Below are positions 1,783 through 22,619 of a stretch of 24,003 nucleotides of DNA, piece by piece (position 1 is the first letter of the stretch; every line of letters starts with the position of its first letter). Source of the stretch: a virus. The notes under the pieces are model-generated. The model ran no database searches and was not told the DNA's origin. It was given only the letters and a program-made list of their open reading frames with translations. The position numbers and the translations under genes were made by a program. The stretch is from positions 1-24,003 of the IMG/VR virus record IMGVR_UViG_3300038326_000135; one strand, written 5' to 3'.

Positions 1783-2997
1783 ATGACTCAAATCCGAACA
1801 ATAGACGAACTTGAGGCACTTCATTATGGATACAACCGCAATTTGTTGAGAAAGGCTGACGCCCCAGTAACAACATCAACAGCTGGCACATTCAACGCCA
1901 TCTTTGGTGCATATGCATGGGCTCAATTAAACCTTGAAGCCAACGCATTCGGAGTTCTCCCAAAATACCCTTGGGATAAATCTGGATGGAGGGTCATAAC
2001 TGCAAAACCAACATTGAATACAACCAATGGTAATACTACCTTGGGTGGAACCAGTGAAGGTGGCAGTATAGCAGAAACCGTAAAACCAACACTACAAGAA
2101 CTAGATGTACGTCCAAAGACAGCTCAGTTGCCTTTCAGTGCATCAGAAGTTATGGAGTGGTTGTCTACACATTCAAAAGACGACATTTGGGGAGGTCTCG
2201 GCTCACTCAGACTCTATATGGCAGTTCAACATAAGGAATTCCTTAATAGAATGCTACTTGCCGACGTAGAAAGTGAAGCAGCAGGTGCCAGTGCTAATAA
2301 CGCTGGTAGTACAGACTTTGAATCATTGGACAGAATTATTTCTTCCGATGCTGAAGAGGATGCATTAGGCGGAACATACACAGGTATGTACGACCCATGG
2401 GCTGCTAACGCAACTGTAGACAGAGATTCTGGTACAGACTTTGACTGTACAGTAGAATCTGCTTCTGGTACAATTGGTACCGACGGAGTCCTTACTGACG
2501 ACACTCTAAGAACTTTCCTCAGAAAGGTTAGAATCGCAGCAGGTAAAGACCCAAACGTTTTCCTAGGCTCTCACGAAGTCTACTCAGAAATACAAGGCTT
2601 GTACATGCCTTCAGTCCGTATCGCAAACCCTTACGGTGAAGCACTCGTACAAATCGACGTAAATGGTATCCAAACATTTAAGGGTACTGGAGTAGGAATT
2701 CATGTAGACTCTATCTATGGAATCCCATACATCCCAACCAAAGACGCCCCATCTGGTGGCGGAGATGAAGTTGGTAGACTATTTGCATTAGATACATCTG
2801 ATGCAGAAGGTTATGGATACCCAAGACTCGGAATTCAAGTCGCAATCCCAACCGAATACTATGAAGCAACTAGACGTTCACCTGGTTACCCATTCGTAAA
2901 CAATGCATTTGTTGAGAAAGGTGTATTCAGAACTATGGGCGAAACAGTTTGTAGACACTTCAAATCACAAGGTAAGATTAGAGATATCAAACTCTAG
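1783..2997 (+). CDS. Major capsid protein, HK97-fold candidate
   Basis: A 404-residue protein placed directly after the protease-scaffold gene, the usual site of the major capsid protein. It starts one base after the upstream TAA, with a TAGGAA element about 9 bases before the ATG. Features consistent with this role are a cleavable-looking N-terminal region (first about 30 residues), a central acidic, glycine-rich stretch with many Thr and Ser, and a C-terminal part with PNVFLGSHEVYSEIQGLY and GIPYIPTKDAP, resembling P-domain and A-domain segments of HK97-fold proteins. Codon use is distinct: many GAC, AAC, ATC and CTC codons, unlike the tail genes, which suggests selection for high expression. 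A T-rich terminator follows. I assign it from position, length and codon bias more than from a signature motif. Confidence 0.8.
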   Translation: MTQIRTIDELEALHYGYNRNLLRKADAPVTTSTAGTFNAIFGAYAWAQLNLEANAFGVLPKYPWDKSGWRVITAKPTLNTTNGNTTLGGTSEGGSIAETVKPTLQELDVRPKTAQLPFSASEVMEWLSTHSKDDIWGGLGSLRLYMAVQHKEFLNRMLLADVESEAAGASANNAGSTDFESLDRIISSDAEEDALGGTYTGMYDPWAANATVDRDSGTDFDCTVESASGTIGTDGVLTDDTLRTFLRKVRIAAGKDPNVFLGSHEVYSEIQGLYMPSVRIANPYGEALVQIDVNGIQTFKGTGVGIHVDSIYGIPYIPTKDAPSGGGDEVGRLFALDTSDAEGYGYPRLGIQVAIPTEYYEATRRSPGYPFVNNAFVEKGVFRTMGETVCRHFKSQGKIRDIKL

Positions 2998-3770: not shown

Positions 3771-3790
3771 AAAGCAACGCTTATATATTC

Positions 3791-4432
3791 ATGGCAACTC
3801 CTGTTTACTGTACCGTCGCTGATGTATCCGATTTTCTACGTGTTCCTATCACTGCTACTACTACTCCAAACAAGACTCAGGTCACGAAACTCATAAATCG
3901 AAAGGAGGAGGAACTTGACAGAAGAATGGGACATGCATGGAGAAGCAAGACAAAGACAAAAGAACTTCACGATTTACCTTTACTTTACACTTTTGGATGG
4001 GGTACTCCTATCTTCCTTCAACACAGGAACATATACGAATTTGATGTAGACCAGGGTGACAAGATCGAGATTTGGGAAGGTGCAGCTTCAAACTGGACAA
4101 ACATCCTTGGAAACGAGTCATGGTATGATGTAAATTATGAAAGAGGTACAGTACATCTCAGAGGTTATATTTTTTCCATACTCAGAAAAAACAGATGTAG
4201 AGTAACATATCGTTACGGTGGAGAAAACTTTGCAGGTGATACTGAAATTCCATATGATATTCAGGACTGTGTTGTAAAAATGGTTGCAATGGAAATTATG
4301 AACACCAGTTTCAGAATGGATACAATACCAATGGGTGGAGAAGGTATCAATATAGGTCAGGTTAAACGTGAATGGCGTGAAGACATCGAGAAATGTATCA
4401 ATAATAGAAGAGAAATCTTCGTGATCCCTTGA
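3791..4432 (+). CDS. Head-tail connector / head completion protein
   Basis: A 213-residue protein. The N-terminus (PVYCTVADVSDFLRVPIT, then a helix with NKTQVTKLINRKEEELDRRM) matches the general pattern of gp6-like adaptor proteins: a short ATxxDV element followed by helices ending in a basic region. These form the ring that binds the portal and starts the neck. The middle is beta-rich with many aromatic residues, and the C-terminal third is helical again (IQDCVVKMVAMEIM). It has a structural-class promoter and its TGA overlaps the next start (TTGA at 4429-4432). Its position after head genes and before the tail terminator supports the role. It is longer than minimal adaptors because of the central beta region. 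Confidence 0.65.
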   Translation: MATPVYCTVADVSDFLRVPITATTTPNKTQVTKLINRKEEELDRRMGHAWRSKTKTKELHDLPLLYTFGWGTPIFLQHRNIYEFDVDQGDKIEIWEGAASNWTNILGNESWYDVNYERGTVHLRGYIFSILRKNRCRVTYRYGGENFAGDTEIPYDIQDCVVKMVAMEIMNTSFRMDTIPMGGEGINIGQVKREWREDIEKCINNRREIFVIP

Positions 4433-5638: not shown

Positions 5639-6661
5639 GTGAGTAAAATGGTTCGAACTGGTGCTAATAGTTATCTTAAATATGGATGGGAAACAACGTT
5701 TGCCACAAAATCTAGTTCCATGACCAAGCCATTTGGTCTACAACAGTCAGTAGGTAACTGGTCTGTAAATAACTCTAGAAAAGACCTCAGAAAATTAGGT
5801 CAAATTGAAAGAGAGGCATTCGCATATGGTCAACAGAATGGTTCTTTATCAGTAGATTTTGTACTATCAAATCCTTGGGTTTTTAAAGCATTATACGGAA
5901 CACCTTCAACAACAGGCTCTGCATCAGATTTTACACATACTTATCCTCATGCATCAAACGGACAACCAAAAACTGTTCAGCCTATCTCATGTGAGATTGG
6001 ATTCCAGGCAGAAGACGCAACAAATGCAACAGTAGTAAGAAGTATGTTAGGTGGAGTTTTAACAGGATTAAATATCAGTACAGCAGTAGATGATTTAGTT
6101 AATGTTTCAGCTGATATCACTTATGGAAGTGAAGCAGATCCATCAAATACAGTTTCAGATTTCGATACATCCCCACCAGCAGATGATATTAATTTTCCTT
6201 ATACATTCGCACATGGATCATTAAAATGGTATAACGGTTCATCATTGGCAACAGTAGCAGAAGTACAAAGTGTCAGTGTTGCATTTACACAAAACGTCAA
6301 TCTATTATACAGAATTGGATCACATAAAGCAACCGCAGCATATAGACAAGGGTTTGACATTAACGGTTCATTCCAAGCCTCATGGAAAGATGATGCAATG
6401 TTTAAACAATTATTAAACCAAATTGAAACTACTCCAACAACAGAAATTTACTCTGGTTCAAACACCGCATTAGAATTAAAATTCACTAATGGAGCAAGTG
6501 GTGCATCTGAGAAAACAATTACAATGAATATTTATGGTGTTGCAATAGATAGTCAATCTGTTGATGGTATTAGACCAGTAGACCCAGTATTTGAAACAAT
6601 TAACTGGGAAGCAAGAGGTGCAACAATCATCGCAAATAACAGTATAACAACTGCATTATAG
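5639..6661 (+). CDS. Major tail tube protein
   Basis: A 340-residue beta-rich protein in the usual tail-tube position, after the tail terminator and before the tail assembly chaperone. Near the N-terminus KYGWETTFAT is the strand-turn seen in many tube proteins (KWGEETTYGT-like). This is followed by VNNSRKDLRKLGQIERE and a GSLSVDFVLSNPWVFKALYG segment typical of phage tail tube proteins of this type. The C-terminal half has several long strands and a DGIRPVDPVFETINWEARG block. The length suggests an added C-terminal Ig-like domain. I chose GTG 5639 (MSKMVRTG) because the promoter is spaced for it. It is transcribed from a structural-class promoter, and as the main tube building block should be highly expressed. 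No sheath gene follows. Confidence 0.75.
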   Translation: MSKMVRTGANSYLKYGWETTFATKSSSMTKPFGLQQSVGNWSVNNSRKDLRKLGQIEREAFAYGQQNGSLSVDFVLSNPWVFKALYGTPSTTGSASDFTHTYPHASNGQPKTVQPISCEIGFQAEDATNATVVRSMLGGVLTGLNISTAVDDLVNVSADITYGSEADPSNTVSDFDTSPPADDINFPYTFAHGSLKWYNGSSLATVAEVQSVSVAFTQNVNLLYRIGSHKATAAYRQGFDINGSFQASWKDDAMFKQLLNQIETTPTTEIYSGSNTALELKFTNGASGASEKTITMNIYGVAIDSQSVDGIRPVDPVFETINWEARGATIIANNSITTAL

Positions 6662-6696: not shown

Positions 6697-7035
6697 ATGA
6701 CTATAAAGAAATTTACAATAGATTATAAAGGTAAAAAAGAACCTATAGAATATGACGATGATATGTCATTCGGAGTATTTGAGAAAATCATTAGAGAATG
6801 TGCAGATATTTCAGATGAATCTAAAATGTTAACAAATGTTCAAGGATATAGAAAAGCTATATTATTAAATGCTTTAACAAAAGCACCATTTGAAATTACT
6901 GAGGAAGGAATAGAAAAAGTGGGTTATAAAATATTATTAAAAATAGCAGATAAGGTGGTGGCATCATACCCTTTAGGGGATTATTTGAGCCAGACGATGA
7001 AGCCATTCGAAGACTCACCTCTTACGATAAACTAA
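6697..7035 (+). CDS. Tail assembly chaperone, short form (gpG-like)
   Basis: A 112-residue protein sits between the tube and tape measure genes, where long-tailed phages encode the tail assembly chaperone. It begins with a small beta region (KFTIDYKGKKEPIEYDDDMSFG) and continues as helices, similar in layout to lambda gpG-type chaperones. These coat the tape measure protein and recruit tube subunits. The frame ends at TAA 7033-7035, but the -1 frame stays open from 6954 to 7265. The heptamer C CCT TTA at 6969-6975 lies at codons 92-93, so a fraction of ribosomes should make a longer G-T-like protein (next entry). Confidence 0.8.
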   Translation: MTIKKFTIDYKGKKEPIEYDDDMSFGVFEKIIRECADISDESKMLTNVQGYRKAILLNALTKAPFEITEEGIEKVGYKILLKIADKVVASYPLGDYLSQTMKPFEDSPLTIN

Positions 7036-7265
7036 AATATCAAATCTACGCTGCAACTGCATCCCAATTCGGGTGGGATAAGGAACAGACAGATAGACAA
7101 CCTTGGCAATATCTAAAGAATACAATGATTACATATAAACAAGAAATGAGTAATGCTATGGGTAATAAGAGGGTTAATACAACTCCAATAGGCGATCAAA
7201 GAGTAGCAAAACCTAGGAAGAAATCCAAGAGAAATTTAAATAATAGGAAAAGTCTTATAAAGTAG
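6697..7265 (+). CDS. Tail assembly chaperone, -1 frameshift fusion (gpG-T-like)
   Basis: If ribosomes slip -1 at C CCT TTA (6969-6975), codons 1-93 of the short form join the -1 frame from AGG at 6975 to TAG at 7263-7265, giving 189 residues. The -1 extension has no ATG, GTG or TTG start near its beginning, yet reads like real protein: EPDDEAIRRLTSYDKLKYQI, then AATASQFGWDKEQ and PWQYLKNTMITYKQEM, and a Lys/Arg-rich end. The T-part with a Q-F-G-W motif and basic tail resembles gpT-like chaperone extensions that bind the tape measure protein. The gene ends just before the tape measure ATG. The mechanism is inferred from sequence; the coding potential of the -1 frame is directly visible. Confidence 0.75.
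6969..6975 (+). promoter_or_regulatory. Slippery heptamer CCCTTTA for -1 frameshifting
   Basis: Read in the zero frame the site is C CCT TTA, an exact X XXY YYZ heptamer. The proline and leucine tRNAs can re-pair as CCC TTT. It lies inside the only window (6954-7035) where zero and -1 frames are both open. A GGGG follows at once. A weak downstream stem TGAG/CTCA (6986-6989 with 7014-7017) can be drawn, but I do not trust it. Confidence 0.75.
7233..7242 (+). promoter_or_regulatory. Possible TATA box before the tape measure gene
   Basis: AATTTAAATA ends about 25 bases before the ATG at 7267 and lies in the end of the chaperone T-part. It could give a separate leaderless tape measure transcript, but AT-rich context makes this uncertain. 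Confidence 0.35.
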
Positions 7266-7266
7266 T

Positions 7267-9828
7267 ATGGTTGATACTGGTAAAGATTTTGCATTAGGAT
7301 TTGATTCTAAGACTATAAAGTCTATAGATGACTTGACAAAAGCTGCTGGCATCTACAGAGAAGCATTTAAAGCACAAGGTGCACAGTTAAATCAATTTAA
7401 AAAATTATTTAGAAAAGGTTCCAATATGAATTTCCATAAGGATTCTCATAAACAAGCAATGGGTGTAGGATTAGATAAATTATCAGCAATAATGACTAAA
7501 TCTACTAAACTAAATGAAACTAATAATGCTAATTTAGTAAAAGAATTAAAGAAATTACATATGTCATTAGCACCTGCTGGGGTTAAAGGTAGTGCTGGAT
7601 TAGCAGAAAGATTATTTATGTCTAATCAATCTAGAGTAACAAATGTATTTAGTAGAAAGTATCCTAGTTTAACAGAACAAAATGTTGACACTTCATCTAG
7701 AAGTAATCCTGGATATACATCCAAATCAAGAACACCTTCTCTATTATCAAGTTTAATCAAAAACGCTGAATTTAATGGTTCAAGTGGGGGTGTTTCTCCT
7801 GAAGATTTAGGAAATAATGCATATGAATCTTCATCATCAATCATAAGTAAATATATTAGAAAACAAACAGTTGATAAATTTAAACCATGGATGAAAGATA
7901 AACGAGCAAAATATAATGATGTAAAAGGTTCATTGAGAGATGTAAATCCTATATCCAGAGCATTAAGAGGAGAACAAGGTTTAGAATCTCCATCATATGT
8001 AAAAGCATTTGGAGGATTAAAAAATAATATTAGTAAATTATTTGGTGGAGGTAAAGGTACTGGTGGTTCTAGTGGAGAAGATGAAACAGAAAAGAAAAAG
8101 AAAGGATTAGGATTCTTTACAAAAGCAGGTATTATAGGTATCGGTGGAATGATAGGAAAGAAATTATTTGATTCATCTCCTATGTTACAAGCTATGATGA
8201 AATTATTTAATACTGCAATGACATTATTCTTAAGACCTATAGGAGACTTTATAGGAGGAATGTTAAGACCTCTTGTATTTTTCTTCTTGAAAAACATAGC
8301 AATTCCTATGGCTAAACAAGGTAAAGGTATGATGAATCTCGGTGAAAAAATAGGTAAAGGATTATTAGGATTTTTCCTTAAACCAGGTGAAAGTATTAAA
8401 CAAGCAATATTAACTGCAATAATACCTTTATGGACTTCATGGATGAATTTTGTAGCTCCTTCTGGTAGATTTGACAAATCATTAAATGAGGGTGAAGGGG
8501 CATTCAGACCTTGGGAAGATAAAGATAATAGTCAATTTGGTTGGGCTCAAAATTATGATCCTATAAAAGATTGGAAGATTGATAGAATGTTAGAAATGGA
8601 AAAAGGTAAAGATATACCTGACCAAGATGAAATAGAAATGTGGGAAAGGGCAAAGGAATGGATGCATATGGGTAATTTAACAAAAGATATTGTTGACTCT
8701 ATAACATTTGATGATTTTAATGATGGACTTGGTATGTTTGGAATAACAGTTACAAATACTGGTAAAACTTTGGATGAACTCACAGAATCAGCTGAAAAAG
8801 CAACTGATGCATTATTAGGTATAGGTAAAAAAGAAATGACACCCCTAGAAAAAGAAATTGCAATATCTAAAGAACTTCATCCAGAATGGTTTGATGGTAG
8901 AGGCGGTAAGGGTGGTGTTAATATAGGTAATTTCATGGATCAATTTGGTGAAGAAGGTAGTGATGCATATAATGAGGCACAGGAATTTGCTAAGAATATT
9001 GCAAAAATGAAACTAGACTCAGAATTATCAGCACAAGAAACAAATATGTTACTTAATTATTTTATTAGTGCAAAGAAACATGGTATTGGAACAGCACAAA
9101 TACTTAACGATATAGGTGATATAATAACAGATGCTAGAGATGAACTTGCTGAAAGACTTCGTTCATTAATAGGACAACAAATTACAGCAAGAACCACATA
9201 TGGTTTATATGGTCAAACAGGTAAAGCCGATTCTGATTTAGTTCAAACAAATAATTCCCTTAATGCTGGAGGAGGTTCTTTTAGTGGCGGTGGTAGTGAA
9301 ACATCAGGGGGTAAAATGGCAACGGCTTCAGAAATATATGCTTTACAAAAGAAATATAAAAAAATAACTGGTGAATGGTTAGTAATACCATCAGGAACAA
9401 TGACACGAGACCGTCTTAACAGTCTTAATAAATATCTTGATGATTATATAGCACATGATAAAACTAATGCATATAATACAAATACTGGTAATGCTAGGGA
9501 TACTGCGGCAGCAGGTGGAAGTACAGGATATGATGAAGATAAAAATGGGGATGGTGTGGTTGACTGGCAAGATTATACAGGTATGGCAAAAGGTGGAGTT
9601 ATATCAGAACCTATATTCGGTATAGGTGCTCAAACTGGACAAAAATATAAGTTTGGAGAAGCTGGTAGAGAGATAATCACACCAGAAGGTAAATCAAGTG
9701 GTGGTACCATATATAATGTGATTAATATAAACATAGGAAATGTGAGTAAAGAGGCTGATTATACAAAACTTAAACCTTTAATACAAAGGTGGTTATTAGA
9801 GTCTAATAGTAGGAGAGGAATACTTTGA
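7267..9828 (+). CDS. Tail tape measure protein
   Basis: At 853 residues this is the second longest protein here, and it directly follows the tail chaperone, as tape measures do. It sets tail length during assembly and leaves the tail during infection. Residues 1-270 are Lys- and Ser-rich, partly helical. Residues about 275-398 are hydrophobic with several possible membrane segments (FTKAGIIGIGGMIGKK, LRPLVFFFLKNIAIPMA), likely membrane-active on DNA entry. Residues 758-769 form a perfect EF-hand-like loop (DKNGDGVVDWQD), which may bind calcium. Near the C-terminus AKGGVISEPIFGIG and FGEAGREIITPEG match the conserved tape measure ending (GG..sePt..G..GEaG.E.i.P). The rule of about 1.5 A per residue gives a tail near 128 nm. 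Its TGA overlaps the next TTG start. Confidence 0.9.
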   Translation: MVDTGKDFALGFDSKTIKSIDDLTKAAGIYREAFKAQGAQLNQFKKLFRKGSNMNFHKDSHKQAMGVGLDKLSAIMTKSTKLNETNNANLVKELKKLHMSLAPAGVKGSAGLAERLFMSNQSRVTNVFSRKYPSLTEQNVDTSSRSNPGYTSKSRTPSLLSSLIKNAEFNGSSGGVSPEDLGNNAYESSSSIISKYIRKQTVDKFKPWMKDKRAKYNDVKGSLRDVNPISRALRGEQGLESPSYVKAFGGLKNNISKLFGGGKGTGGSSGEDETEKKKKGLGFFTKAGIIGIGGMIGKKLFDSSPMLQAMMKLFNTAMTLFLRPIGDFIGGMLRPLVFFFLKNIAIPMAKQGKGMMNLGEKIGKGLLGFFLKPGESIKQAILTAIIPLWTSWMNFVAPSGRFDKSLNEGEGAFRPWEDKDNSQFGWAQNYDPIKDWKIDRMLEMEKGKDIPDQDEIEMWERAKEWMHMGNLTKDIVDSITFDDFNDGLGMFGITVTNTGKTLDELTESAEKATDALLGIGKKEMTPLEKEIAISKELHPEWFDGRGGKGGVNIGNFMDQFGEEGSDAYNEAQEFAKNIAKMKLDSELSAQETNMLLNYFISAKKHGIGTAQILNDIGDIITDARDELAERLRSLIGQQITARTTYGLYGQTGKADSDLVQTNNSLNAGGGSFSGGGSETSGGKMATASEIYALQKKYKKITGEWLVIPSGTMTRDRLNSLNKYLDDYIAHDKTNAYNTNTGNARDTAAAGGSTGYDEDKNGDGVVDWQDYTGMAKGGVISEPIFGIGAQTGQKYKFGEAGREIITPEGKSSGGTIYNVININIGNVSKEADYTKLKPLIQRWLLESNSRRGIL
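9811..9818 (+). promoter_or_regulatory. Shine-Dalgarno element deciding a TTG start
   Basis: AGGAGAGG lies about 6 bases before TTG 9825, inside the tape measure 3' end. It supports TTG as the start of the next gene, since the next in-frame ATG falls 13 codons later without such an element. Confidence 0.6.
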
Positions 9829-12853: not shown

Positions 12854-14353
12854 ATGGCAAAGATCCTTATACCACGTTCAGATAGTATTTCAGCTAAAGT
12901 CATAGAACCATCTGACTTTGAATCATTTTTTGGTGATGATATTTTAAATAATTATGTTAAATCAGGTTTTACACTATCAGCTGGATCAGGACTAGCAGTA
13001 AATATAGCAACAGGTGTAGGTAGATTAAAAGGGCTTTATATTAATAATTCAACATCATCATCTAAATCAAGTTTATCAGCAAGTTCAACAAATTACATTT
13101 ATATAACATTGACAAGAGATTCAAACTCTGAAGCAGAATCATGGGATTTTACTTCTAACACTACTGGTACAACACCAACTGATTCCTTATTTATAGGTAC
13201 AGCAACAACTGATGGTTCTAGTGTAACAGCTACAAGTACTGATGATGTAGTAATTACAAGTGGTACTAAATCTAATATATTTTATGGTAATGGACAAGAT
13301 GGTGATGTAACAATATCATCAAATACAACGTTATCAACCCAAAAATATTATAATAATTTAACAATTAATTCAGGTGTAACTCTTACTATTAATTCAGGTA
13401 TATGTCCATTTGTAAAAAATGAATTAAATATAAATGGTATTATTAAAGGAACTACAATATCAGGAGGTAGTGGAGGAGCTGGTGGAGCAGGCTCTGGAGG
13501 CGGTGGACGTGGACCAAATGCAGCTGCTCCTTCTGCTGGTGGAACAGGTGGTTCTGGTGGAACTGGATCTAGTGGAACTGATTCTGGTTTATCTGGAGCC
13601 GCAGGCGGTGCAGCCGGACCAGGTACAGGCGGTGGGTCTGGAGGACAAGGTACAGGCGGTGGTGGAGGCGGTGGCGGTAATGGCGGTGGTGGTGGTAGAC
13701 CAGGTGGAGCAGGTGGAGTAAGTGGCGGAGCAGGTGGAGCTGGAGGAGCAGGTGGAACATTAACAACATCTTTAGGAAGTTTATTAACAACTATACAAAC
13801 AACCCCATCTCTATCTTCAGGAGGCGGTGGAGGAGGTAGTGGAGGAGCTGGAGGCGGTGGTGGCGGTGGCGGTAAATATGGTAACGCATATAATGGTACA
13901 GGTAATGGAGGAGCTGGAGGTAGTGGAGGAGCTGGTGGTACTGGTGGTACTGGTACAACCTCAGTATTTATTGTTGCAAGAATTATTAATTTAAATGCTG
14001 GTGGAACTCTTATTTCTACTGGAGGAGATGGAGGAGCTGGAGCAGCTGGAGGAGCTGGAGTAAAGGGTCAAGCATCTAATAATGGTGGTGGAGGTAGTGG
14101 AGGAGGTGGATCACCTGGTTCAGGCGGTGGTGGAGGTTCAGGAGGGGTTATATATTTAATGTATCAAATATTTAATGAAAATGGTACTATTAGTGTAGGT
14201 GGCGGTGCAGCCGGACTTGCTTCTAACAGTGTTGGTAATGGTGCTAACTCTCCTAGTCCAGCTGGTGGTAGTAATGGAGGAGGACAAGGAAGTGTAGGAG
14301 GACAAGATGGTGGAGCAGGTGGTTCTGGTACAATTTACAGAGAACAGATATAA
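12854..14353 (+). CDS. Glycine-rich tail adhesin
   Basis: A 499-residue protein with three parts. Residues 1-100 are a beta-rich start (GSGLAVNIATGVGRLKGLYI) that probably attaches to the tail. Residues about 145-200 (GDVTISSNTTLSTQKYYNNL, INSGVTLTINSG, ELNINGIIKG) resemble a small beta-helix found before glycine-rich tracts in many phage proteins. Residues about 204-495 are dominated by Gly with Ala and Ser, in runs such as GGAGGAGG and GGGGGGSGG, broken by short ordinary segments. Such tracts can pack as polyglycine II helices, as in the phage S16 gp38 adhesin, and carry receptor-binding loops at their tips. It begins from a structural-class promoter. The DNA of the tract is repetitive (GGAGGAGCTGGAGG-like words), so slippage or recombination could vary it. 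Confidence 0.65.
   Translation: MAKILIPRSDSISAKVIEPSDFESFFGDDILNNYVKSGFTLSAGSGLAVNIATGVGRLKGLYINNSTSSSKSSLSASSTNYIYITLTRDSNSEAESWDFTSNTTGTTPTDSLFIGTATTDGSSVTATSTDDVVITSGTKSNIFYGNGQDGDVTISSNTTLSTQKYYNNLTINSGVTLTINSGICPFVKNELNINGIIKGTTISGGSGGAGGAGSGGGGRGPNAAAPSAGGTGGSGGTGSSGTDSGLSGAAGGAAGPGTGGGSGGQGTGGGGGGGGNGGGGGRPGGAGGVSGGAGGAGGAGGTLTTSLGSLLTTIQTTPSLSSGGGGGGSGGAGGGGGGGGKYGNAYNGTGNGGAGGSGGAGGTGGTGTTSVFIVARIINLNAGGTLISTGGDGGAGAAGGAGVKGQASNNGGGGSGGGGSPGSGGGGGSGGVIYLMYQIFNENGTISVGGGAAGLASNSVGNGANSPSPAGGSNGGGQGSVGGQDGGAGGSGTIYREQI
13460..14340 (+). repeat. Low-complexity GGN-repeat DNA in adhesin gene
   Basis: This stretch consists largely of GGA/GGT/GGC codons mixed with GCT/GCA, with repeated words such as GGAGGAGCTGGAGG at several places. 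It is far richer in G than the surrounding AT-rich DNA. The zero frame codes the glycine tract; an open second frame is a by-product. Confidence 0.7.
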
Positions 14354-17444: not shown

Positions 17445-20102
17445 TTGCCAATAATTAACATATTTCAGACAAACGTTTTTGATACTGATGTATATGAAAA
17501 TAACTTTGATACCACAACTCATCAAGTATATCAGTCAAACATATTCTCAGATTATACATTCGAAACAAATTTTGAACGAATAGTAACAAGAGTATTTCAA
17601 AAGAATTCATTCCAAAATAATGTATTTAGTTGGGAATATAGATGGAACCCACAATTCCAAGGTAATGTATTTAGTTTCACAGTATTCTTTGCAGGTGCAT
17701 TAATAATTAGGGTATTAAATGAAACTGTTAGAACAACAGAAGGTATAAACAGACTTATGGAAATGCTTAGATATATTAATTCTACAATGCAGTTAAGTGA
17801 AAATAATCCAAGGTTAATGGAGATGACCAGATTATTAACTGAAACAGAATCATTATCAGAAGATAAGAACAGACTTATGGAAATGTCCAGATACATAAAT
17901 GAGACATTACAAATAAACGATGCTGAAAACAGATTAATGGATATGTCAAGGAATATTAATGAATCAATTTCATTATCTGAATCATTTAACAGACTCCAAA
18001 ACATGTCTAGATATGTGAATGAAAGTGAAGAGTTAGATGAATCAACACCAAGATTAATGGATATGTCAAGGTATGTGAACGAGACGGAGGGTGTTAATGA
18101 ATTAATAACCAGACTGTTATCAATGTTTAGACATCTAAATGAGAACGTAAACATGTCAGAATCAACATCTAGATTAGAAAACTTGAACAGGTATATCAGT
18201 GAAGTAAATCAAATGTCAGAAACACTTGCAAGATATCAAGATAAATTAAGGTTCATAAATGAATCAGAATCATTGATAGAATTTGATGGTACAGTAAGAA
18301 CCATGTTTAGAATGATAGATGAAACTCTAAGAATATCAGAGGGAATTTCTAGGTTGTTAGGAATAATAAGAATGTTATCAAACACAATACAAACAGCAGA
18401 ATCAACCCCTCGATTAATGGATATGTCTAGATATATTTCAGATGATTTATCATTATCTGAAAATGTCAATAAATATAGAACCATGTTCAGAGTTCTAAGT
18501 GAATCAGTTTCATTATCTGAAGCTAAAAATATTGCACGAGTTATGTATAGAACTCTTAATGAGACATTGAGAATATCTGATTCTGGATTTGCATTAAGAT
18601 TAAACATTGTGAGATACATCAATGAGAGTGTTTCAATATCAGAGTTATTATCAAGGTTCTCTACAATAGTGTTATTTATTTCTGAATCAATCAGTATGTC
18701 AGAAGTCAAAAACAGACTTCAAAACATGTCAAGGTATGTTAGCGAATCATTGTCATTGTCAGAATCATTCAATAAATACAGAACAATGTTTAGAACTCTT
18801 AACGAGTCTGAGCATATATCTGAATTTGATGGTAGGTTAGAACAGTTATTCCGATATGTAAACGAGTCTATTAGAATTACCGAGGATACATTACATAGAA
18901 AAGTTATACGGTTTATGATTAATAGTAATATGAGTTTATCTGAATCATTGGTTAATCCAAGAACCATGTTCAGAGTCTTAAATGAAAACATGAACACTTC
19001 TGAATTGGTTACACGTCTTATGAATATGAGAATATATGTAAACGAGTCAGTCAGTATAAATGAATTAGTAACAAGACTCCAAAATATGTCAAGGTATGTT
19101 AGCGAATCATTGTCAACATCAGAACTATTAAATATGATTAGAGGTAGACATGAATATGTTAATGAGTCAATTAATATAACTGACACAATTAACAACTTTA
19201 GAAACAGGTATAGATTCTCTAACGATTCAATATCATTAATAGAGTTTGATGGAAATGCCAGAACCATGTTCAGGGTCATAGATGAAACTCTAAGAATATC
19301 AGAAAATATCAGTAGATTATTGGGAATACTCAGACATATTACTGATACTGTTCAATCATCAGAAACCAGTCCTTACTTGAAGGGTATGCTAAGATACTCT
19401 AATGACTCATTGTCATTGTCAGAATCACTTAACAAATACAGAAATATGGTTAAAACAATAAATGAATCGTTAGAGAATTCTGAAGTATTTACAAGATTGA
19501 TGGACATGTCAAGGTATGTAAACGAGTCAATGTCAATTTCAGAAATCAAAAACAGACTTCAAAACATGTCAAGGTATATGAACGAGTCATTGTCATTGTC
19601 AGAATCACTTAACAAATATAGAAATATGTTCAGAATATTTAATGAATCTGAGAGTATATCTGAATTTGATGGAAGAGTAGAACAATTGCGAAGATATGTG
19701 AACGAGTCAATACAAACTATTGAAGATAAATTGTCATATAGAGACAGATACATACATATATCTGAGACTATATCATTGAATGAATTATTAACTAGATTCT
19801 CAGAGGTCAGAAAAATTGTGTCAGAATCACTTAATTTGTTAGAATTTGACGGTCAGAGAATATTAACTATCATTAGATCAATTAATGAAACATTAAGAAT
19901 ATCAGAATCATTTAGCAGACTCCAAAACATGTCACGTTTCATTAATGAAACAGAGTCAATAATAGAATCCCTTACAAAAGAAGTTTTGTCAGGCTTAGTA
20001 ACAAAGACCAAGAGTGTGGGAATTTTTGGAAGATCTAAAGGTATAGGTATATTCAGTCGTTCTAAAATAGCGAAAGTATTTAACAGAGGAAAAAGGATAT
20101 AA
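17445..20102 (+). CDS. Long repeat protein, 37 x 20-residue repeats (tail shaft/adhesin candidate)
   Basis: An 885-residue protein, the longest here. The only usable start is TTG 17445 because a TAA precedes it in frame. Residues 1-80 contain F-x-x-N-x-F motifs (IFQTNVF, VYQSNIF, VFQKNSF), seen in baseplate-attached phage proteins. Residues 102-843 are 37 tandem repeats, 35 of 20 and two of 21 residues, with consensus xRLxxMxRyxNESlxLSEsx; examples are NRLMDMSRNINESISLSESF and NRLQNMSRYVNESEELDEST. The end (IFGRSKGIGIFSRSKIAKVF) is strongly basic. There are no Cys or known enzyme motifs. The place between fibre and BppU-like genes suggests a fibre shaft. I do not recognise the family for certain. 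Several repeat blocks are recently duplicated (separate finding). Confidence 0.7.
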   Translation: MPIINIFQTNVFDTDVYENNFDTTTHQVYQSNIFSDYTFETNFERIVTRVFQKNSFQNNVFSWEYRWNPQFQGNVFSFTVFFAGALIIRVLNETVRTTEGINRLMEMLRYINSTMQLSENNPRLMEMTRLLTETESLSEDKNRLMEMSRYINETLQINDAENRLMDMSRNINESISLSESFNRLQNMSRYVNESEELDESTPRLMDMSRYVNETEGVNELITRLLSMFRHLNENVNMSESTSRLENLNRYISEVNQMSETLARYQDKLRFINESESLIEFDGTVRTMFRMIDETLRISEGISRLLGIIRMLSNTIQTAESTPRLMDMSRYISDDLSLSENVNKYRTMFRVLSESVSLSEAKNIARVMYRTLNETLRISDSGFALRLNIVRYINESVSISELLSRFSTIVLFISESISMSEVKNRLQNMSRYVSESLSLSESFNKYRTMFRTLNESEHISEFDGRLEQLFRYVNESIRITEDTLHRKVIRFMINSNMSLSESLVNPRTMFRVLNENMNTSELVTRLMNMRIYVNESVSINELVTRLQNMSRYVSESLSTSELLNMIRGRHEYVNESINITDTINNFRNRYRFSNDSISLIEFDGNARTMFRVIDETLRISENISRLLGILRHITDTVQSSETSPYLKGMLRYSNDSLSLSESLNKYRNMVKTINESLENSEVFTRLMDMSRYVNESMSISEIKNRLQNMSRYMNESLSLSESLNKYRNMFRIFNESESISEFDGRVEQLRRYVNESIQTIEDKLSYRDRYIHISETISLNELLTRFSEVRKIVSESLNLLEFDGQRILTIIRSINETLRISESFSRLQNMSRFINETESIIESLTKEVLSGLVTKTKSVGIFGRSKGIGIFSRSKIAKVFNRGKRI
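17748..19973 (+). repeat. 60-bp tandem coding repeat array
   Basis: Thirty-seven degenerate 60-base units (two of 63) encode the repeat domain of the 17445 protein. The words ATGTC(A/T)AG(G/A)TAT and TCATTATCTGAATCA-like recur. Larger copies are superposed: the CTTCAAAACATGTCAAGGTAT word at 18717 returns at 19557, 840 bases later, with its flanks. Confidence 0.8.
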
Positions 20103-20493: not shown

Positions 20494-21222
20494 ATGAATA
20501 TAGGTTGGACAACACTTGATTATGGATCAGATTTATTATATGAGGAACCTGCTAGATTATATGAGCAAATAGCACCTGAATATAATTATGGTTTAAAACA
20601 CTGTTTAGGTGTTAATGATTTATGGAAAAATGTTTTTTCTATAAAATTACCGTTTAATTTAAAAATTTCATATGATAATGATTTACAAAAAGTAATTATA
20701 GATGAAGATTATAGTACAATAAATACTGATAAATTAATTTCATTTATAGATAATGATATTTCTTCTTATACAAAACATCCGTTAATACAAATTAAATTAA
20801 ATCAAATTTTTTCTAGTGATAGCCAATGTCTATTAACAATAATGCCACCAATTTTTGAACTTAATAGTAATCCTATGTGGCAGTATATAAGATTAATATC
20901 TGGAACTATGAATATATATGATTGGCATAGAGATGTTAATTTTTCATTTGAATGGTTAGATACATCTAAATCAATAACTATTAAAAAGGATACACCTATA
21001 TCATATGTTAAATTTAATTCTAAAAAACTTGATGACACATTTAATATTAAGAGATTAAAATTTGATGGGGATATAAAAGAATCATATAAGAGATGTATTG
21101 GTTCAAGAGATATAATAAAACGTGGAACTAGATTTTTACTTAAACGTAATAAAGAATTGAGACCTAAACACATAGTAGATACAGAATGTCCGTTTTCTAA
21201 AATGAGGTTCTGGAAGAAATGA
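20494..21222 (+). CDS. Unknown protein, DUF6065-like pattern
   Basis: A 242-residue protein. The middle carries HPLIQIKLNQIFSSD, a PPIFELN loop, then SGTMNIYDWHRDVNFSFEWL and SITIKKDTPISYVKF. This run (Pro-Pro-x-x-Glu, then a WH.R..NF.F.W block, then strand with KxxTPIxYVxF) resembles small proteins, annotated as DUF6065-like, that lie next to dioxygenase genes in marine phages; this is from memory. The C-terminus is basic with a CPFSKM tail. The stop overlaps the ATG of the following dioxygenase (ATGA at 21219-21222), so the two probably act together, for example one modifying and the other carrying or recognising the substrate. The DNA is very AT-rich. Confidence 0.45.
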   Translation: MNIGWTTLDYGSDLLYEEPARLYEQIAPEYNYGLKHCLGVNDLWKNVFSIKLPFNLKISYDNDLQKVIIDEDYSTINTDKLISFIDNDISSYTKHPLIQIKLNQIFSSDSQCLLTIMPPIFELNSNPMWQYIRLISGTMNIYDWHRDVNFSFEWLDTSKSITIKKDTPISYVKFNSKKLDDTFNIKRLKFDGDIKESYKRCIGSRDIIKRGTRFLLKRNKELRPKHIVDTECPFSKMRFWKK

Positions 21223-21827
21223 AATATAATATAATCAATGACCCAATTGAATTTATTACAATTGATAATTTTTTTAATTCTACTGAACTTAAAAATGTCA
21301 AACAAGAGATTAATACATATGAAAATGAATTTGAACCAGGATTATATCAAAGAGACGGTGTAGAAATATTAGATATCAAAATGAAGAAAAATAAAATCAT
21401 ATGGCTAAAACATAATAAGGAATCATATATTTTAAAAACTTTAGCAAAAAAATGGTTTAGTAAAAAAAATATGAATTTCTTGAAAAATTTAGATAATCCA
21501 ATATTCGAATCATTATCAGAAACTACATCGGATAATACTCAGATCTCATGCTATGGTAATGGTGATTATTATAATTATCATAAAGATGCTGTAAGTGAAT
21601 CTGTATTTTTAACATTGGTCATAATGATATGTAATGAACCTAAACAATTTACAGGTGGTGATTTAATATTTAAACGTAATAAAAATACTGCAATAGTACC
21701 ATTTAAAGATAATATAGGTATATTATTTCCAAGTAGAATATTACATAAAGTAACACCAATAAAATTGAAAGATAATCAATTTAAAAATAAAAGATTTACA
21801 ATACAAAATTGGGCTCATATTCGATAG
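21219..21827 (+). CDS. Fe(II)/2-oxoglutarate dioxygenase, prolyl-4-hydroxylase type
   Basis: A 202-residue enzyme of the P4Hc fold. The iron ligands are visible: H121 and D123 in YYNYHKDAVS, and H176 in PSRILHKVTPI, with R192 in NKRFTIQNWAH as the 2-oxoglutarate ligand. Between them lie the usual QFTGGDLIF and GILFPS segments. All catalytic positions are present. Family members hydroxylate proline or other side chains and use O2, ascorbate or another reductant, and 2-oxoglutarate. In phages they occur near tail genes, with the substrate rarely known; the nearby fibre and adhesin are possible targets (inference). The gene starts in an ATGA overlap with the upstream gene, with GAGGT about 10 bases ahead. 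Its stop TAG is the first triplet of the next promoter. Confidence 0.85.
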   Translation: MKYNIINDPIEFITIDNFFNSTELKNVKQEINTYENEFEPGLYQRDGVEILDIKMKKNKIIWLKHNKESYILKTLAKKWFSKKNMNFLKNLDNPIFESLSETTSDNTQISCYGNGDYYNYHKDAVSESVFLTLVIMICNEPKQFTGGDLIFKRNKNTAIVPFKDNIGILFPSRILHKVTPIKLKDNQFKNKRFTIQNWAHIR

Positions 21828-21857: not shown

Positions 21858-22619
21858 ATGTTAAAACTTGAAGATATCAATAATCATATTTACTTTGAAT
21901 TAAGACGTGCTCAAACCGAGGCTATGGAAACAGAGAGACTGGGTAAGATACACGTATCAGACATCATTAAACCATGTATGAGAAATGTAATTTATAAGAA
22001 ATTCATACCTGACACAGGAATGTCAACTGAAAATATGAAATCATTATATTTTGGACAGATAGTTCACTCACATACAGACATAGCCGAGGAAAAATATCAT
22101 GAGATGTTCCTTGCATATGACTGGGTAAAAGATGAACCATTAACATATGAACAAGCCAAAAAGATTCCAGATGGTGACGAGAGACATCTTGATATTATCT
22201 ACGGCAGTATAGATGATGTCATAGAGGTAGGGGGTAAATGGATAATATGTGATAAAAAGACTACAGGTGCTATAGACTATTTCTCTAAAGCCTCATCAAA
22301 ACCATCAGATTCACACAAGGATCAAATCAACAGATATAGAGTATTATTAGAGAAATGTTATGGTATTACTGCTGACTTTGGTTGTGTTATTTATATTTCA
22401 AATAAGATTGAAAAGGAAAAGAGAGATATTCCTAGACCTATATCATTCAAGCTTGCACCAATAGAAGAAACATTACAGGACATGAAGGAGAAGGCAATGA
22501 TAATAAAGAATTCAATTTTGTTAAAGACCTTGCCTGAGAGAACCAGATGCTTCCTTTGTGATGGAATGTGCGACTATGCGTCAATGTGTTTCCAGGATAA
22601 TCGGACACATATAGAGTGA
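21858..22619 (+). CDS. Cas4/RecB-like PD-(D/E)XK nuclease with Fe-S cysteines
   Basis: A 253-residue nuclease of the Cas4/RecB type. The core is visible: HVSDIIKPC (residues 32-40), GQIVHSH with H70, GSIDDVIEV (D119/D120), the DKKTT block with D132 and K134, and QINRY as the QxxxY motif (156-160). C40 and the C-terminal C231, C234, C238 and C244 (CFLCDGMC...C) match the split Cys pattern that holds a 4Fe-4S cluster in Cas4 and AddB-like proteins. It probably acts on DNA ends in replication, recombination or packaging. No cas1, cas2 or CRISPR repeat is near, so a stand-alone viral Cas4 is more likely than adaptation. Its stop overlaps the next start (GTGA). Length fits the family. Confidence 0.8.
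   Translation: MLKLEDINNHIYFELRRAQTEAMETERLGKIHVSDIIKPCMRNVIYKKFIPDTGMSTENMKSLYFGQIVHSHTDIAEEKYHEMFLAYDWVKDEPLTYEQAKKIPDGDERHLDIIYGSIDDVIEVGGKWIICDKKTTGAIDYFSKASSKPSDSHKDQINRYRVLLEKCYGITADFGCVIYISNKIEKEKRDIPRPISFKLAPIEETLQDMKEKAMIIKNSILLKTLPERTRCFLCDGMCDYASMCFQDNRTHIE

Follow-up and report, generated by a model that had tools for sequence, protein, structure and literature searches.

A predicted −1 ribosomal frameshift at a conserved CCCTTTA heptamer in a putative tail assembly chaperone gene of uncultured archaeal viruses

Background

The closest described counterparts of the gene reported here, a predicted tail assembly chaperone gene with two overlapping frames in the IMG/VR virus record IMGVR_UViG_3300038326_000135, are found in haloarchaeal viruses. 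The chaperones of HVTV-1 (gp129/130), HCTV-5 (gp128/129), HCTV-1 (gp122/123) and HCTV-2 are likewise encoded in two overlapping frames with a −1 shift. Frameshifting of the lambda G/GT type is already known in these four viruses and is not new in kind; what is new here is the C_CCU_UUA slip site, its invariance, a Shine-Dalgarno (SD)-like element upstream of it, and the probable host group. The window referred to below is the whole stretch of DNA analysed, 24,003 bases of this virus record.

In HVTV-1 and HCTV-5, the chaperone gene lies directly between the tail tube and tape measure genes, as in the window, and is annotated with joined frames; in HCTV-1 it adjoins the tube gene, but two small genes precede the tape measure gene. 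An SD-like GGAGG, of which no mention was found in the texts consulted, lies 10 nucleotides (nt) 5′ of the GGGAAAG shift site of HVTV-1 and HCTV-5 (L165:17776-17812; L253, about 2583-2619). The haloarchaeal siphoviruses share with the window virus a related capsid protein and a similar predicted chaperone fold, but their chaperones have no detectable sequence similarity to that of the window and their hosts are salt-loving.

The slip heptamer of lambda gpG/gpGT differs from CCCTTTA. The lambda system resembles the window gene in gene position, in a −1 shift near the end of G, in a T frame without a start and in that both products are expected to be assembly factors (PMC5009743); it differs in that no sequence family match is detectable and in that an upstream SD-like element is selected in the window's group. 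Escherichia coli dnaX also combines a slippery heptamer with an internal SD-like stimulator 5′ of it (a class treated in PMC4066793), but gene and outcome are different, and in the window's group the spacing is mostly 11-17 nt and no downstream stem-loop was found. Saccharolobus solfataricus fucA1 is an experimentally studied archaeal −1 frameshift, but it lies in a cellular gene, has an A-rich site and has no virus or tail role (PMC8211752). Experimental support for programmed frameshifting in archaea is sparse, as the initial annotation of this locus also remarked: a review gives fucA1 as the studied case, and those of the haloviruses come from genome reports (PMC8211752, PMC5009743). In the literature searched, the coverage of which is incomplete, we found neither a report of frameshifting at CCCTTTA/CCCUUUA in archaeal or phage tail genes nor a paper linking Nitrosopumilus viruses to tail-gene frameshifting.

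Overlapping reading frames and proposed mechanism

The elements of the window on which the analysis centres are as follows:

6697..7035, + strand: 0-frame open reading frame (ORF), predicted gpG-like tail assembly chaperone, 112 amino acids (aa), ATG at 6697, stop TAA 7033-7035 included
6975..7265, + strand: −1 frame extension, predicted T-like domain, 96 aa after the slip, TAG 7263-7265 included
6969..6975, + strand: putative slippery heptamer C CCT TTA, in correct codon phase for the 0 frame and within the overlap
6953..6957, + strand: SD-like AGGTG, candidate stimulator, within AAGGTGGTGG (6952-6961), 11 nt 5′ of the heptamer

The whole −1 open frame extends from 6954 to 7265 on the + strand and ends with the TAG at 7263-7265. 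Its earliest canonical start is the ATG at 7125, which is far 3′ of the heptamer and falls past a conserved FGWDKEQ motif, leaving the frame start-free for 52 codons. Because of this, the conserved first half of the −1 frame could not be made by ordinary initiation. A shift would be productive over an overlap of 79 nt, and the predicted slip product has 93 + 96 = 189 aa, with the junction formed by VVASYPL and RGLFEPDD; the predicted trans-frame junction peptide contains VVASYPLRGLFEPDDEAIR. The observation is real: the frame limits given in the initial annotation, the absence of an own start in the −1 frame, the heptamer and its phase, and the products of 112 and 189 residues joined at YPL and RGL were all reproduced from the sequence, the ORF list and translation of the slip.

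CCCTTTA occurs only once on the + strand of the window, at 6969-6975. In-frame heptamers of the type X XXY YYZ were found at 31 of 7040 codon positions in the window ORFs, which gives about 0.11 expected per 26-codon overlap. In a single sequence the heptamer is only suggestive, and it becomes decisive together with relatives; since it is unchanged across 104 distinct relatives (see below), it is not due to chance.

We estimate a probability of about 0.9 that one mRNA gives rise to two tail assembly chaperones through a −1 slip at CCCTTTA. Most ribosomes would read 6697-7035 and produce the 112-aa G-like protein. A minority would slip back at 6969-6975, with tRNA-Pro (on CCU) and tRNA-Leu (on UUA) re-pairing on CCC and UUU, and would continue in the −1 frame to 7265, producing a 189-aa G-T fusion. 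If the lambda system is a guide, tape measure protein would be bound by the G part and tail tube subunits recruited by the T part, and the shift would set the ratio of G to G-T. We infer the occurrence and rate of the shift, as well as the G/GT biochemistry, from sequence and analogy. C_CC.U_UU.A is among the motifs that shift at more than 0.10% in E. coli without stimulators (PMC4066793).

Conservation of the heptamer and selection on both frames

To collect relatives, IMG/VR was scanned with the tube and the −1 frame as well as with chaperone and capsid profiles. The resulting set comprised 196 loci holding both ORFs, 104 of which have distinct sequences over the 187 nt compared. All 196 loci (104/104 distinct sequences) have their second ORF in the −1 frame and carry CCCTTTA in phase within the overlap, including all 38 loci picked by the major capsid protein alone. 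An ATG, GTG or TTG in the −1 frame 5′ of the heptamer was found in none of the 104 distinct sequences (and in none of the 92 of an earlier set). The comparison with related viruses proposed in the initial annotation thus favoured its claim: heptamer and −1 frame were present throughout, and no relative has a −1 start upstream of the heptamer or a first gene ending before it, the outcomes it had named as telling against a frameshift. Chaperone identity to the window drops to about 30% or below among the relatives, and therefore the conservation of the heptamer does not merely reflect recent divergence.

In 104/104 sequences the site uses CCT for proline and TTA for leucine, whereas every other conserved residue column uses 2-4 codons. 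The codon before the heptamer specifies Tyr, His, Phe or Ile, its amino acid having changed about 8 times on the nucleotide tree, yet it is always TAC, CAC, TTC or ATC; elsewhere, C-ending codons make up just 18-30% of those for these residues. On the same tree, parsimony gave 0 changes at all 7 heptamer positions, whereas third codon positions had a median of 24, and the longest stretch of unchanged positions upstream of the heptamer is 2. The heptamer is the sole invariant stretch within the overlap, and the residues of the −1 frame are unconserved 5′ of it and conserved 3′ of it. Judged from these alignments, the site is conserved at the nucleotide level beyond amino-acid constraint.

Selection was assessed on 30 independent pairs. 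The ratio of nonsynonymous to synonymous substitution (Ka/Ks) was 0.125 in the part of the 0 frame that precedes the heptamer and about 0.23 in the part of the −1 frame past the 0-frame stop, indicating that the −1 frame is under purifying selection there. Inside the overlap, the proportion of synonymous differences (pS) was down from about 0.61, at 0.38 in the 0 frame and 0.33 in the −1 frame, as dual coding with constraint on both frames would predict.

Two distant relatives, L021 and L022, whose tube proteins are 27-28% identical to that of the window, keep the −1 arrangement, with an in-phase A AAA AAA in place of CCCTTTA. The runs lie in the overlap at:

L021:7271-7277, A AAA AAA run
L022:7271-7281, A AAA AAA run

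The L021 tube matches that of HCTV-1, whose neighbour is an annotated frameshifted chaperone. These data, from just two outgroup sequences, suggest that the slip site was replaced within an old arrangement.

Probable identity of the gene as a tail assembly chaperone

The initial annotation placed the gene between tube and tape measure genes, and this position was confirmed, the tube gene by Pfam and the tape measure gene by position and length alone:

5639..6661, + strand: tail tube gene, Pfam PF18906 Phage_tube_2, E 3.3e-20
7267..9828, + strand: presumed tape measure gene, 853 aa, assigned by position and length, no family match

A structure model of the 0-frame protein reached a predicted local distance difference test score (pLDDT) of 85. 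With this model, Foldseek retrieved tail assembly chaperones of HCTV-1, ChaoS9, HHTV-2 and Bacillus phages, at E 2.5e-3 and above; the strongest matches (E about 5e-4) were unnamed viral proteins, one of them from an uncultured archaeal virus. The −1 domain was modelled as a small helical unit, and its best Foldseek match was to an uncultured archaeal virus protein, at E just 0.1. Pfam gave no match for the chaperone. Among relatives, the commonest PHROG match of the −1 domain is phrog_9001, tail assembly chaperone, which is weak (8 of 34 members, best E 0.0064).

With sequence profile matches this weak, the frameshift could be real and the gene something other than a G/GT tail assembly chaperone. 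We consider this quite unlikely, because the gene has the same neighbours, tail tube and tape measure, as its counterpart in HVTV-1 and HCTV-5, and because most of the fold matches with a name are tail assembly chaperones, frameshifted archaeal ones included. The invariant heptamer, the selection on both frames and the fold model together support the original proposal of a lambda G/GT-like tail assembly chaperone with a −1 programmed frameshift.

Upstream SD-like element and other routes to the −1 product

The SD-like element is absent from the initial annotation. In the window its duplex with the anti-SD sequence has an energy of −10.4 kcal/mol. Across the group, pairing is strongest at −24 to −15 relative to the heptamer, where the mean energy is −8.15 kcal/mol and that of synonymous shuffles −4.07 kcal/mol (z about −15). 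The excess over the shuffles is confined to the stretch around −27 to −15 (z −7 to −15), and z ranges from −1.5 to +3.1 elsewhere. With SD-like motifs defined as in PMC4066793 (6-17 nt upstream), the element was found in 60 of 76 clusters at a spacing of 11-17 nt, mostly 13-15. Motif counts alone are not decisive, control positions giving 0-33 of 76 clusters, and the synonymous-shuffle test was relied on instead. By this test the SD-like codons are selected beyond synonymous expectation. The element, some 11-15 nt upstream of the slip site in the window and most relatives, probably pauses or pulls the ribosome and so would raise the shift rate.

An SD-like element in 60 of 76 clusters would also be expected if the −1 product came from ribosomes that initiate internally behind it, whether at a canonical start or a near-cognate one, giving two proteins and no frameshift. 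Potential starts do exist: a 0-frame ATG directly follows the element in 36 of 76 clusters, and a TTG, GTG or ATG lies in the −1 frame about 8 codons 3′ of the heptamer in about half of them. The latter start is not universal, however, and is absent from the window, where the first is the ATG at 7125; a canonical −1 start 5′ of the heptamer occurs at 0/104 loci, and the −1 codons between the SD-like element and the heptamer (CTA, ATA, ACA, CCA and others) are not a conserved start. Internal initiation also leaves unexplained an in-phase heptamer with zero changes and a preceding codon that always ends in C, and we regard it as quite improbable.

The 79-nt overlap leaves room for the −1 frame to be joined elsewhere, by transcriptional slippage or other recoding such as a +2 shift or a hop. 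The heptamer is, however, the only invariant stretch of the overlap, and homopolymer runs at the conserved site are too short for polymerase slippage, which makes this route very improbable. That a single-base deletion, by sequencing error or decay, split one chaperone gene, as one contig alone might look, is refuted by conservation, the same split site being found in 104 distinct sequences from many metagenomes with purifying selection on both frames.

Probable host group and neighbouring genes

The major capsid protein gene was identified upstream:

1783..2997, + strand: major capsid protein, phrog_24667, E 8.6e-26

In tblastn, the capsid protein matches HVTV-1, HCTV-1 and HCTV-5, as well as a Methanofastidiosa virus. 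In three relatives, an AmoC gene of about 187 aa is located just 3′ of the capsid gene, upstream of the chaperone:

L244:3822-4382, AmoC gene
L245:3670-4230, AmoC gene
L246, about 3777-4337, AmoC gene

These proteins scored well under the cut-off of the bacterial AmoC model and matched AmoC/PmoC structures just distantly, which is in line with archaeal AmoC. The window has no AmoC gene at the equivalent place, and none was noted among its ORFs. Published marine Thaumarchaeota tailed viruses carry amoC (PMC8115048). The label of archaeal virus given to the window by the initial annotation is supported by the haloarchaeal and Methanofastidiosa capsid relatives and by AmoC on the relatives' contigs; the window virus probably infects ammonia-oxidising archaea. 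In L245 (4248-5012) and L246 (4462-5238), amoC is followed by a gene for a secreted-looking protein with a signal-like N-terminus and a coiled-coil-like C-terminus.

Viruses with chaperones that are often just 30-40% identical have capsid proteins sharing 86-91% identity, which suggests module exchange or very uneven evolution. Elsewhere in the window, 12854-14353 encodes a 499-aa protein, probably a tail fibre, that is extremely rich in glycine and contains tandem repeats, and 17445-20102 an 885-aa protein with many imperfect repeats of the MSRYVNES-SLSES-NRL type, which matches phrog_12240 of unknown function and is probably a fibre or surface protein. A 2-oxoglutarate-Fe(II) oxygenase (21219-21827, E 1.7e-9) is followed by a PD-(D/E)XK/Cas4-like nuclease (21858-22619, E 5.7e-5).

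Evidence for and against the proposed frameshifted chaperone

Several results count against this interpretation. When each half of the window protein was searched against chaperone profiles, as the initial annotation had suggested, Pfam, PHROGs and NCBIfam returned nothing significant, the weak phrog_9001 hits coming from the −1 domain of relatives; hhalign against the HVTV-1 chaperone halves was not significant and a PDB fold search gave nothing. The SD-like element is missing from 16 of 76 clusters, mainly one sister clade, and RNAalifold found no consensus structure 3′ of the heptamer, overall or in the groups with and without the element; z-scores of downstream folding against shuffled sequences were also weak (about −0.6 to 0). 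Because the element is lacking in these clusters and neither group has a conserved downstream structure, the stimulator is not universal. The host assignment draws on AmoC of three relatives, the window contig not among them, and two scans of genome contigs, with chaperone and capsid profiles, detected no provirus.

Conclusions

We lean towards the view that a large lineage of ammonia-oxidising archaeal viruses carries a fixed cassette, in which an element pairing with the anti-SD lies 11-17 nt 5′ of an invariant C_CCU_UUA; that archaeal ribosomes may respond to an internal SD as in bacterial dnaX; and that slip sites may have been swapped (to A_AAA_AAA in deeper relatives and G_GGA_AA(C/G) in haloviruses) while the −1 arrangement was kept. 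The cassette is compact and naturally replicated, more than 100 variants of its sequence being available from uncultured archaeal viruses. Its slip site is clear, and for its candidate SD stimulator the SD-less sister clade provides a natural contrast. With it one could test directly whether C_CCU_UUA makes archaeal ribosomes shift and whether pairing with the anti-SD promotes this, and the chaperone, whose second half would be easy to overlook, can be annotated correctly.
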